The position numbers and the translations under genes were made by a program. DNA of 64,000 nucleotides from NCBI RefSeq assembly GCF_019048865.1, contig NZ_CP077604.1, forward strand, positions 4,712,001 to 4,776,000. Direction: 5' to 3'. The notes under the pieces were generated by a model. It saw only the letters and a program-made list of their open reading frames with translations. It was not told where the DNA came from and did no database searches. This DNA is from Aquihabitans sp. G128. GTDB lineage: Bacteria > Actinomycetota > Acidimicrobiia > Acidimicrobiales > Iamiaceae. Within the stretch, counting starts at the first letter, position 1; the number at the start of each line of letters is the position of its first letter. Shown piece by piece: positions 8,631 through 64,000 of this stretch.

Positions 8631-9561
8631 ATGAGCGCGCCCCGGTTCCGCCCTGACCTGCAGCTCGCCGACTGGGTGCTCGACCTCAGCCGGCCCGTGC
8701 TGATGGGCGTGGTCAACGCCAACCCGGACTCGTTCTCCGATCCCGGCCACCGACCGCTCGACGTCCAGCTCGACCAGGTGCGGGCCATGGTCGACGAGGG
8801 TGCCGGGGTGATCGACGTGGGCGGCCAGTCGGGCATCACCAACGTGGCCGAGGTCGACCCGAGCGAGGAGATCGACCGGGTGCTGCCGTTGGTCGAGGCC
8901 ATCGTCGCCGAGCTGCCCCAGGTGGTGATCTCGGTCGACACCTACAAGCCGCCGGTGATCGCTGCGGTGCTCGCCGCCGGCGCCCACATCGTCAACGACG
9001 TCAGCGGGCTCCGCTCCCCGGAGCTGGCCCCGCTGGTGGCCCGGCACCGCGCCGGGCTGGTGGTGATGCACACCGCGGCGCCGCCCAAGACCCGCCTGCA
9101 GTCGAGCGACCTGTACGGCGACGTGGTCGCCGACGTCACGGCGTTCCTGGCCGCCAAGGTGGCCGAGGCGGTGGCCGCTGGCGTCGACGAGCGGTCCATC
9201 CTCGTCGACCCGGGCCCCGACTTCACCAAGACCCCGGCCCAGACCGTCGAGGTGCTGCGGCACCTGGCCACGCTCAACCCCCAGGGGCTGCCGGCGCTGC
9301 TGGCCCTGAGCCGCAAGGACTTCATCGGGGCCCTCACCGGCACCCGCCCGAAGGAGCGGCTGGCCGGCACGCTCGCCGCCGTCGCCGCGGTGGGCAGCGG
9401 CTCCGGCGTGGTGCTGCGGGTGCACGACGTGGGCGAGGTGCGCCGCTTCCTCACCGTGCTCGAGGTGCTCGAGGGGGAGCGACCCGGTCGACCCGGAGCT
9501 GCGCCTCGCCGACGACCTGCGCTGGGCCGCCGGCCGCCCCGACGGCACGAAGGCGGTCTGA
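8631..9561 (+). CDS. folP: Dihydropteroate synthase homologue (apparent frameshift)
   Basis: A TIM-barrel pterin-binding enzyme: VNANPDSFSDPG near residue 25 matches the FolP signature, DVGGQSG is the second loop and LSRKDFIG the late pterin/phosphate motif. It would join p-aminobenzoate and hydroxymethyl-dihydropterin diphosphate in folate synthesis; no other folate genes are near. The frame leaves the expected path at a five-G run (9473-9477). With four Gs it reads EVLEGSDPVDPELRLADD and stops at 9561, four bases before the convergent neighbour; uncorrected, it would run about 90 bases into that gene. Corrected length 309 residues. A paralogue of unproven activity (FolP2-like) is possible. 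No clear SD before ATG 8631. Confidence 0.82.
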
Positions 9562-51900: not shown

Positions 51901-52072
51901 GTGGTAGGTTCCCGGGCGCAGTCAAGGGAAGCCGGTGTGAGTCCGGTGCGGTCCTCGCCACTGTGACCAGGGAGCGAAGCTGATCTCCACCACGGGAACT
52001 CCCGGGCTCCGGCCCGGCCGGGAAGGTGCAGCGGAGCGTCGATCTGGGAGCCAGGAGACCTGCTGCGCACGA
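51901..52072 (+). ncRNA. Cobalamin riboswitch
   Basis: Conserved blocks are present in order: GGGAAGCCGGTGTGAGTCCGG (51926-51946), GCCACTGTGACC (51957-51968), and the B12 box AGCCAGGAGACCTGC (52049-52063), with pairing stems between. It precedes cbtB (start 52101) and the cbtA operon, so cobalamin would turn down cobalt-uptake genes. Confidence 0.96.
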
Positions 52073-52100
52073 ACCACGAGTTGATGGAGAACCCTCCGAG

Positions 52101-60955: not shown

Positions 60956-63279
60956 TCAGCGCAGCGAGGAGGCCACGCGCAGGGCCTCGGCCACCGTGAG
61001 GTCGCCGGCGACGGTGAAGACCACGCCGTCGGCCACGCCCCAGAGGCGGGCCCGGCCCCGCGGATCGGCGCTGACCTGCACCCGGGCCTGGTTGAACCGG
61101 CCGTCGCCCAGGGTGCGGGTGGTGGTGCCCGGGCTGGTGGCACCGGCGGCGGCGAACGGGTCCTGCCAGGCCTTCGGGTCGTCGCCGGCCTCCCGGGTGG
61201 TGACCGTGATGCGCTCCGGGCCGCGCTGGTAGGCGATCGACTGCACCGCCCGGTCGGGCGGGTTGGCACCACCGCCGGTGGACCGGGCCCCGGCCGCCGG
61301 CTCGCCTCGGACGAAGACCGACGAGAGCTCGAAGCCCTCGGGCAGGGCGGCGGGCGTGACGGCCTGGCCCCGGCCCAGCACGACGACGGCCGGCAGGTCG
61401 GTGGCCAGGAACCCGAACCGCTCGACCTGGGCGCCGGCGGGCAGCGCCGGGACGAAGGTGTCGTCGGGCAGGTCCGAGGCGGGTGTCCAGCCGCTGAAGC
61501 GGATGCGGCGGACCAGGGCACCGCCCCGATGGCGTTCGATGCGCACGGGCAGGCCGTCGGACCGTCGGACCTCGATCTCCCACGCCTCGGTGGCCCCGTC
61601 GGGGCCGGTGCCGAGCGAGCGGCGGGCGGTCCAGGTGCGCATGGCGCCCCGTCGGGTGGCGCCGGCCCGGGCCGAGGCCCGGCTGCGCAGGATCGTGCCC
61701 GCCGACTGGAGGTCGGCGAGGAACCCGGGCGCGTCGGCGGACGGATCGGGCCCGCCGGCCGACAGGCCCTCCTGGCCCGAGCCCAGGACCGTGGCGGGCG
61801 CGCCGTCGCGGCCGGCGAGGGCCGCGACGTGGCGGGACAGGCCGAAGCCGGCTGCGTAGCTGGCCTGCTCGATGGCGTCGGTGCGGCCCGTCGACCAGGA
61901 GCCGTCGTCGGCGATGGTGAGCCGGTTCTCGGTGCGGGACCGGGAGCCGTCGGTGCCGACCTCGTCGACGCGGACGTCGACCCGGAGGAACCGCGAGGCG
62001 CTCAGCGCCGTCGCCATGGTGTCGGCCAGCTCGGCGTCGCTCACCGAACCGTCGGGGGTGCGCCCGCTGAGGCCGATGGTGACCGCGGCCGCCACCAGCC
62101 CGAGCACCACCAGCACCGCGGCGGCGAGGGCCAGCGGCTTGCCCCAGCGACGGCGGGGCCGCTGCTGCTCGGCCCGATCGGCCAGCGTCTCCACGGGCGT
62201 GCTGGGCGGGCGGGTGGGGAGGCGGCCCTCGCTGGGGTGGACCCGGGCCAGGCGGGCCGCCGGGTCGATGGTGGGCGCCGCCGGCCGCTCGCGCTCGGCC
62301 AGCAGGCGGCGGCCCAGGTCCGGCCAGAACGCGTCCGATCGTGACGGGACGTCGACGGACGCCAGGATCCGCCGTCGACGGGCCTGGGCCTCGTCTCGCG
62401 CGCTGCTCGGCCTCCTCGACGGCACGACGAGCAGCCTGGCGCTCGGCGGCGAGCGCCAGGCCCTCGGCCTCCGCCACCCGGCGGGCGGCCTCGGCCGCGG
62501 CGCGGGCACGGGTGGGCTCGGCGTGCTCGGCCCAGTCGGGCACGGCGAACGGGTCGGCCGGGGCCGTGTCGACGGACGGCCCGCCGGTGGCCGGTGCCAC
62601 CTGGGGGGCCGCAGGGTCGGCTCCCGGTTCGGCGCCCGCCCGCGCCGCCGGGCTCCGGCGCCTCACCGGTCCCCGGCGCCTCATCCGGCTCCGGCCCCGG
62701 GTCGGGCAGCAGGTCGAGCGCCCGGCGCGCCGCAGCGAGGCGCTCGGTGGCCCTCGCCAGCGGGGTGTCGAACGCGTCGGCCACGGCCTCGGGCAGGAAG
62801 CCCTCGAGGTCGACCATCACCGCCAGGGCTCGCTGGTCGGGGGACAGCCGCCGCAGGGCGGCCACCACGTCGTCGGGCGGCGGCGGATCGGCGGCGACGG
62901 GCCGGGTCGGTTCCGGGCCGGTGCGGGGCTGGCGGCGCCGGGGGTCCCGGCCGAGGCGACGCAGCTCGTCCGGCGCGGCGAGGAACGCCAACCGGTGCAG
63001 CCACAGGCCGGGCGTGCGATCGGCCTGGTAGCGGGGGAGGGCCCGATAGGCGCTGAGGTAGGCCGTGGCGAGCACGCGGTCGGTGGAGCCGGTGGCCCCG
63101 AGCACCTGGTGCACGAACGGGCGCAGGTGGCCGTCCCAGTGCTCGATCACGCGGGCGAACGCCGCGGGATCGCCGCGGCGCGCCGCGACCAGCAGGCCGA
63201 CCGGGACGTCGGCCGGACCCGACCTCGGCCGCGAGGCCCCAGGGATGTCGGGCGAGGGGGGAGCGCTTCGGGCGGGCAC
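60956..63279 (-). CDS. ECF-type sigma factor fused to a membrane anti-sigma-like part (two apparent frameshifts)
   Basis: 775 residues after two corrections, GTG 63279. Residues 25-190 resemble an ECF sigma factor: region 2 DPAAFARVIEHWDGHLRPFVHQVLG, then region 4 DDVVAALRRLSPDQRALAVMVDLEGF. A Pro/Glu/Ala linker and coiled coil (RVAEAEGLALAAERQAARRAVEEAEQRAR) lead to FWPDLGRRLL, a single membrane helix (LALAAAVLVVLGLVAAAVTI) and a 330-residue outer domain. The frames join if two bases are restored near 62396-62402 and again near 62632-62650, both CG runs. No start codon lies between the second break and FWPDLG, which favours one protein. If the breaks are real, a sigma gene and a dead anti-sigma gene remain. 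Confidence 0.65.
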
Positions 63280-63487
63280 CGGGCGACCACCGTACCGGCC
63301 CCGCCGCCGGACATCGGGGGCACCACGGCCGGCGCCGGCGCCCGTGACCGGAGGTCGCCGCACCCGGTGCGCGAGACTGCTGCACCCCTCTTCGAGCGGG
63401 ATCGAAGCGGGCAGCGAGAACGGAGCGGTCGTGGAACCGAGCAGAACTGGACATCGATCGGGAACGCGCGGGCGCCTTCGGGCGTCG

Positions 63488-64000
63488 ATGCCACCTGTGA
63501 CCCCCTCTTCCCTTCGCCGCCTCGCCGCCCCCGTCCTGCTCGCCTCGGTCCTGCTGGTCGCGTGCGGCGGCGGCTCGTCCGACGATGCCGCCCCGAGCAC
63601 CACGGCGCCCTCGGGCATCGACGCCGGCAGCTCCACCACCGCCGCGGCCGGGTCGAGCACCACCACCGAGGCGCCCACCACCAGCACCACGGTCGCCCCC
63701 ACCACCACGACGACCACCGCGCCGCCCGACCCCACGCTCGCCACCGAGCCCGCCGGGCCCATCCAGTCCGGCTCCAAGGGCGTGCGCACCCGGGCCCTCC
63801 AGCAGGCGCTGAAGGACCAGCACTACGACCCGGGCGAGGTCGACGGCGCCTTCGGCGGCAAGGTCACCATGGCCGTCTGGGCCTTCCAGGCGCTCCACGG
63901 GCTGCCCCGTGACGGGATCGTGACCCCCGAGCTGGAGGCCCAGATCCTGGCCAAACCGGCCCAGTCGATGCTGCGCCCCAACCTCGGCCCCACCCACACC
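63488..64000 (+). CDS. Peptidoglycan-binding lipoprotein (partial)
   Basis: 171 codons from ATG 63488 (GTG 63497 also possible) to the window edge; no stop. Lipobox LLVAC near residues 22-26, Thr-rich linker (TTTEAPTTSTTVAPTTTTTT), then a peptidoglycan-binding domain: SKGVRTRALQQALKDQHYDPGEVDGAFGGKVTMAVWAFQALHGLPRDGIVTPE. In similar actinobacterial proteins an L,D-transpeptidase or amidase domain follows; that part lies outside the window. Confidence 0.82.
   Translation, partial: MPPVTPSSLRRLAAPVLLASVLLVACGGGSSDDAAPSTTAPSGIDAGSSTTAAAGSSTTTEAPTTSTTVAPTTTTTTAPPDPTLATEPAGPIQSGSKGVRTRALQQALKDQHYDPGEVDGAFGGKVTMAVWAFQALHGLPRDGIVTPELEAQILAKPAQSMLRPNLGPTHT

Follow-up and report, generated by a model that had tools for sequence, protein, structure and literature searches.

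The envelope-stress switches RpoE-RseA-RseB of E. coli and AlgU-MucA-MucB of P. aeruginosa each consist of an ECF sigma factor, a membrane anti-sigma and RseB or MucB, three separate proteins of a Gram-negative cell. MucB is reported to sense lipid in its half barrel, the pocket of which has a loop as its lid, and AlgW is then allowed to cut MucA (PMC7400510). IutY of Pseudomonas putida (ECF243) acts in siderophore cell-surface signalling and has the anti-sigma domain known from such proteins; its sigma factor, one membrane helix and an outer domain form one polypeptide, and its release by Prc and RseP has been reported (PMC5411451). The actinobacterial groups ECF48, ECF52 and ECF53 also join a sigma factor to a membrane helix and an outer extension; they are described as having a zinc-finger anti-sigma, and ECF52 as having a proline-rich, carbohydrate-binding outer part. 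Members of the three groups are expected to be proteolytically released (PMC8999054), and strong, clear knockout effects are reported for SCO4117 of ECF52 (PMC5826349).

The protein family studied here resembles the RpoE and AlgU systems in having an ECF sigma part, a membrane anti-sigma part and an outer part that is predicted to contain both RseB/MucB domains, but it does so in one actinobacterial chain, with the RseB-like part across the membrane helix and without a separate anti-sigma. It has the same overall plan as IutY, with an RseB-like outer domain in place of the siderophore-signalling one; Pfam scans of the fused family gave no match to the outer anti-sigma domain of cell-surface signalling proteins, and among the neighbouring genes that were compared no TonB-type receptor was noticed. 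With ECF52 and ECF53 it shares the joining of a sigma part and a membrane helix in actinobacteria, and the glutamine of sigma region 2.2 has mostly been lost in those groups as well. A zinc-finger anti-sigma was ruled out for the fused family, since HxxxCxxC occurs in 0/16 proteins, which contain 0-2 cysteines each. Covalent sigma/anti-sigma fusions are already known from IutY and ECF48/52/53, so "uncommon design", the phrase of an original prediction made from the sequence, is a fair description of something that is not new as such; what is new is the RseB-type sensor without a zinc finger. Among the open-licence PMC papers listed, we found no description of a fused RseB-type sigma factor, of a DUF4367 anti-sigma or of work on Iamiaceae sigma factors.

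The gene lies near the end of the 64,000-nucleotide stretch of the Aquihabitans sp. G128 chromosome that was analysed as a whole, which we call the window. Its features, in window coordinates, are as follows.

60956..63279, minus strand: the whole fused gene, from the sigma-like domain and linker through the anti-sigma and membrane helices to the RseB-like outer domain; the window copy has two frame breaks
63289..63294, minus strand: TACGGT hexamer located 9 bases ahead of the GTG, a probable -10 element for leaderless transcription
63277..63279, minus strand: GTG start codon, from the sigma frame and the spacing in relatives
62938..63200, minus strand: ECF sigma region 2-like domain, from profile matches; region 2.2 reads STDRVLAT
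62690..62880, minus strand: ECF sigma region 4-like domain (Sigma70_r4_2, 17.4 bits, below cut-off)
62420..62690, minus strand: helical linker rich in A, E and R, assigned from its amino-acid composition to the third frame; not conserved in relatives
62288..62395, minus strand: short anti-sigma domain, a helix with FWxxLGRRLLAER that matches the N-terminus of the separate anti-sigmas
62069..62137, minus strand: one membrane helix, preceded by a positive-inside RPRRRW stretch, from the sequence and from helix 286-307 in the model of relative L020
60959..62059, minus strand: outer domain with a predicted RseB/MucB fold, a LolA-like half barrel plus a second domain (AlphaFold2, Foldseek, VIA-align)
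63488..64000, plus strand: divergent neighbour, start of a lipoprotein-like L,D-transpeptidase gene (PG_binding_1 and YkuD) that runs past the window and is frame-broken in the assembly

In the window copy, the sigma part is read from the GTG at 63279 with a GC3 of 0.94, and the C-terminal part, the last 1.4 kb, has a GC3 of 0.96 and ends at the stop at 60956-60958. Between these parts lie some 270 bases of linker, which were assigned to the third frame from their amino-acid composition, GC3 not settling the frame there, and the copy is thus read in three frames with two frame breaks. Separate sigma and anti-sigma genes with a true stop and start were ruled out for the window, because the sigma frame is open to 62044, about 350 bases into the C-terminal part, and is therefore still open where that part begins, and because the relatives run through without a stop. 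In a full-length profile search, 16 of 23 family relatives had the whole chain (model positions 1-3 to 661) in a single reading frame uninterrupted by stops; the copy in G016 is interrupted by the contig end, and the window copy aligns to the family profile as two separate segments (E 1.6e-138 and 1.1e-55). These intact one-frame relatives, the full-length homologues for which the original prediction had proposed a search, indicate that its two frame corrections were right and that the family product is a single polypeptide containing both sigma and membrane anti-sigma. Its statement that the anti-sigma part has no start of its own held in part: a stop between sigma and anti-sigma is found in 0/16 proteins, but a start-like codon lies in the linker of 13/16, preceded by a Shine-Dalgarno-like stretch in 5/16. 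Likewise, its "coiled coil" corresponds to a helical linker in the window copy, but in the relatives this linker varies from 10 to 130 residues. The RseB-like outer domain and the loss of the polymerase-binding motif described below had not been seen in that prediction. The GTG at 63279 is a probable leaderless start: by eye, 7/7 loci of two genera (g1 and g5) show a TAnnnT hexamer 8-9 bases upstream of the GTG, which fits a leaderless housekeeping transcript and the end coordinate.

The two frame breaks in the fused gene, together with one in the divergent L,D-transpeptidase gene, could mean that the window copy is a decaying pseudogene and that the protein is not made in Aquihabitans sp. G128. 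Six genus mates (G003, G005, G006, G007, G008 and G010) would agree with such decay, as they gave generic sigma matches only, two of the six being 96-98% complete. We consider this reading improbable. Codon use is intact on both sides of the linker, and 5 of 19 same-strand frame switches elsewhere in the window looked like breaks in a rough home-made HMM; the genome itself is a one-contig, 4.94-Mb assembly that is 92.4% complete, which fits indel errors of assembly. Since a third break lies in the adjoining gene and other break-like switches occur in the same window, assembly errors are the favoured explanation for the breaks. The rough codon HMM placed switches without a nearby stop at window positions 9480, 35270, 38094, 44132 and 52443, each a possible assembly indel.

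With the C-terminal 487 residues as query, 18 of 61 genomes matched (own genome included), all of them in the same family. NCBI assigns the genus Aquihabitans to Iamiaceae, which would also be the family name for the other genera that carry the gene. A C-terminal profile searched against 298 genomes of the order matched 14, 10 of them in the family; the four outside were a sigma/anti-sigma pair in G285, a broken copy in G284, a fragment in G154 and a weak match in G147. In G284 (L183), the outer domain directly adjoins sigma region 2 and there is a further frame break, which may be a deletion or a misassembly; L184 is a C-terminal fragment only, and the search gave nothing for L185. A scan of 397 genomes with the anti-sigma of the G285 pair (L182) added G080, G124, G151 and G220, giving separate overlapping sigma and anti-sigma genes in five genomes of the order, all outside the family.

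These five pairs (L182 and L207-L210) have the same domain order as the fused protein but in two genes. In all five, the anti-sigma gene starts before the sigma gene has ended, and the anti-sigma begins with the same FW/FY helix. Four of the pairs have an overlap of the ATGA or GTGA type, in which the start codon of the anti-sigma gene shares bases with the stop of the sigma gene; the overlap in G285 is eight bases. The G285 anti-sigma has the same outer domain (E 8.5e-71) and a related one is present in G220 (L210; E 3.6e-31), whereas the pairs of G124, G151 and G080 (L209, L207 and L208) have the helix in common and different outer parts. The sigmas of the pairs also differ from the fused ones in keeping the glutamine and the E/D of region 2.2. 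In a tree of 16 fused sigmas, 4 separate ones and 20 other ECFs, the fused sigmas form one side of a branch with support 97/96, the midpoint root serving for drawing only. The original prediction was to fall if relatives had separate genes with a stop and start between them; such genes were seen only in other families of the order, and therefore show the origin of the fusion and do not refute it. The separate overlapping genes are likely the ancestral state, and loss of the stop and start between them would be the simplest history, which also suggests the direction of the fusion event.

To place the outer domain, residues encoded at 60959-62059 of the window and those of six relatives were given to AlphaFold2, and the resulting model had a pLDDT of 78.8 and a pTM of 0.71. 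In a Foldseek search of the PDB with this model, RseB and MucB chains filled the first 13 places (E 2.7e-11 to 1.3e-8), and the matches below them were mostly LolA proteins. VIA-align gave Z 15.0 and an rmsd of 3.0 against a LolA-type protein over the first half of the outer domain, and Z 13.3 with 251 aligned residues and an rmsd of 8.1 against RseB (3m4w_D) over model residues 5-367, an rmsd that we read as both RseB domains being present in order with a different angle between them. The predicted fold thus has the RseB/MucB arrangement, a LolA-like half barrel and then a second domain. The outer-domain profile had no sequence match to RseB in PDB sequences, so the link to RseB comes from the predicted fold; matches of profile A6 to designed proteins and a polyketide synthase in the same sequences were taken as chance. 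Pfam DUF4367 scored above its cut-off solely in one gene (L008/L132; 22.4 versus 22.1 bits). A near-invariant GLxAGxPD adjoins and enters a low-confidence loop of the model (residues 99-109), and it is only a guess that this loop could be the counterpart of the MucB lid. RseB regulates as a separate protein that binds an anti-sigma; here the RseB-like part is fused behind the membrane helix, and in this family the predicted counterparts of RpoE, RseA and RseB are one chain.

The sigma part is recognizable by profile and divergent in detail. Single-protein Pfam matches to sigma regions were mostly near or below cut-off, and for region 2 of the window copy both Sigma70_r2 (16.5 bits) and the NCBIfam SigM-type models (E 6.6e-14) fell below it. 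The family profile, in contrast, matched the solved ECF sigmas, among them E. coli sigma-E (1or7) with E 1.1e-19, across regions 2 and 4. In a full-length model, which was weak (pTM 0.37), the sigma part matched SigW held by RsiW with a TMt of about 0.8. Few parts of the chain are as well conserved as region 2, which has a mean pairwise identity of 0.47 versus 0.29 for the RseB-N part; the sigma-like domain is therefore under constraint and does something.

What it has lost is the DxxDxxQE of region 2.2, which is described as a sigma contact with polymerase (PMC13147305); residues that touch the beta-prime coiled coil are reported to be conserved between sigma-A and ECF sigmas (PMC6411747). 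Among the 16 fused proteins counted (the window copy and 15 relatives, leaving out G017, whose locus L013 began inside the motif and has H at the glutamine position), the glutamine is absent in 16/16, the second D is acidic in three and position 8 in four, while position 3 is acidic (D or E) in every one. The same glutamine is kept in 20/20 other ECF sigmas from the same-family genomes, in 73/74 wider ECFs (the remaining one being a gap) and in 5/5 sigmas of the separate pairs. This loss also accompanies fusion elsewhere. In six other actinobacteria, the glutamine is present in 24/24 unfused sigmas and absent in 4/4 sigma/zinc-finger/membrane fusions, and among 30 ECF52-like loci, 26 were fused by a hydropathy rule and 23 of these lack it (counting L261, which is probably misaligned at the motif), three keep it, and one of the four unclear loci keeps it. 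ECF52 is largely one lineage, and the data therefore amount to two or a few independent losses of the glutamine, not 39. The Iamiaceae fusions have lost more of the motif than the glutamine. The genome of Aquihabitans sp. G128 also encodes an ECF52-like sigma/zinc-finger/membrane fusion (L244; G000:C1:3161200-3162066; a 1028-residue frame with DADDLVAE, without the glutamine) and a second, shorter or broken ECF52-like relative (L266; G000:C1:3636496-3637056). In some large actinobacterial ECF52-like fusions (L267-L270 and L272), the entire DxxDxxQE is gone (AAGMLTTA type), and these are possibly a separate family of degenerate sigmas. A report of this glutamine loss in ECF48/52/53 was not found among the open-licence PMC papers listed, but one may nonetheless exist.

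Since region 2.2 is eroded, the sigma-like domain may not work as a sigma factor. It could instead be a membrane-held mimic that serves protein contacts, for example with another anti-sigma or by weak polymerase binding in the manner of the PhyR sigma-like domain, timed by the RseB-like part. Besides the missing DxxDxxQE and the contrast with all three control sets, the region 2.4 N position speaks for a mimic, being lost in 16/16 fused proteins and kept in 15/20 same-family ECFs, although it varies among wider ECFs (N in 22/74); the region 4.2 helix also has a lower net charge, and L006 has a PhyR_sigma-like Pfam match below cut-off (E 4.3e-5). We nevertheless find this rather unlikely, because region 2 has mostly retained its W and RR, the acid at position 3 is retained throughout, and the ECF52-like fusions lack the glutamine too, one member of ECF52 being SCO4117: given its knockout phenotype, loss of the glutamine alone does not mean a dead sigma. 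Pfam scans covering 10 relatives as well as the pieces of the window copy showed no receiver domain of the kind expected in a PhyR-like mimic. A phosphorylation switch in region 2.2, acting instead of or besides proteolysis, would be modelled on ECF43 (EcfP, EcfK), whose sigmas are described as lacking the acidic DxxD residues, with a proposed gain of charge by phospho-Thr (PMC13147305). The window copy and its genus do have S/T in the motif (STDRVLAT, STDRALSA), but these residues are not maintained throughout the family (RADEIQRA, GAEDVLAE), where position 3 is always D or E, and no kinase was noticed among the conserved neighbours; such a switch seems very improbable.

The surroundings of the gene point to the cell envelope, given the L,D-transpeptidase and the HELTH neighbours. 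In 11/17 loci, own genome included, the fused gene adjoins a divergent gene for an L,D-transpeptidase that also has a peptidoglycan-binding domain (domains from Pfam of the L135 homologue). By eye, no ECF promoter common to the fused gene and this neighbour was seen, the visible hexamer being housekeeping-like. A HELTH metallopeptidase-like gene is near the fused gene in 9/17 loci; in L130-L137 and L139 it is a divergent membrane protein upstream (weak DUF6782), a possible partner protease, and that it might be the site-1 protease is a guess. M50 site-2 protease genes are present in 23/24 family genomes and in 14/14 control genomes, and this near-universal presence therefore says little. Elsewhere in the window, at 51902-52081 on the plus strand, lies a Cobalamin riboswitch (RF00174, 78.1 bits), its sole Rfam match.

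We propose, with a probability of about one half, that the protein is a membrane-anchored ECF sigma/anti-sigma fusion, derived from an overlapping gene pair by loss of the stop and start, in which the RseB-like sensor gates proteolytic release of a sigma domain with weakened polymerase binding. The fusion, its conservation in the family, the separate pairs elsewhere and the motif loss are observed, and the RseB fold is predicted; the ligand or signal, the proteases, the cutting and release, and the regulon or output are drawn from the analogous systems. In the resting cell, the short FW anti-sigma helix would hold the sigma-like domain at the cytoplasmic face, and the outer domain, on the same membrane stalk, would shield the stalk from the first (site-1) protease. 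The outer domain may open in response to a lipid or cell-wall damage signal, so that the stalk is cut, after which a site-2 protease would cut the membrane helix and free the sigma domain. The eroded motif could give a low leak at the price of weak binding, or be compensated by another step.

The most interesting part is the correlation of fusion with loss of the polymerase-binding glutamine. Tentatively, and at odds we put somewhat below even, sigma/anti-sigma fusion may repeatedly be accompanied by erosion of region 2.2, at least twice (the Iamiaceae RseB-type and the ECF52-like fusions), such that a tethered sigma would come under a different rule, binding polymerase only when freed in bulk or acting as a polymerase-independent mimic; in this family, the whole RpoE-RseA-RseB pathway would be found in one chain, in a bacterium that is not expected to have LPS. 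The difference at DxxDxxQE between fused and separate-pair sigmas is a natural experiment, and it makes testable the general question of what a sigma factor that is joined to its own inhibitor requires in order to bind polymerase. With one protein, sensing, anchoring and inhibition in an envelope-stress switch can also be studied jointly with its output, while the two-gene form persists in sister families. For this environmental actinobacterium and its family, the gene shows how switches can arise by the fusing of adjacent genes.
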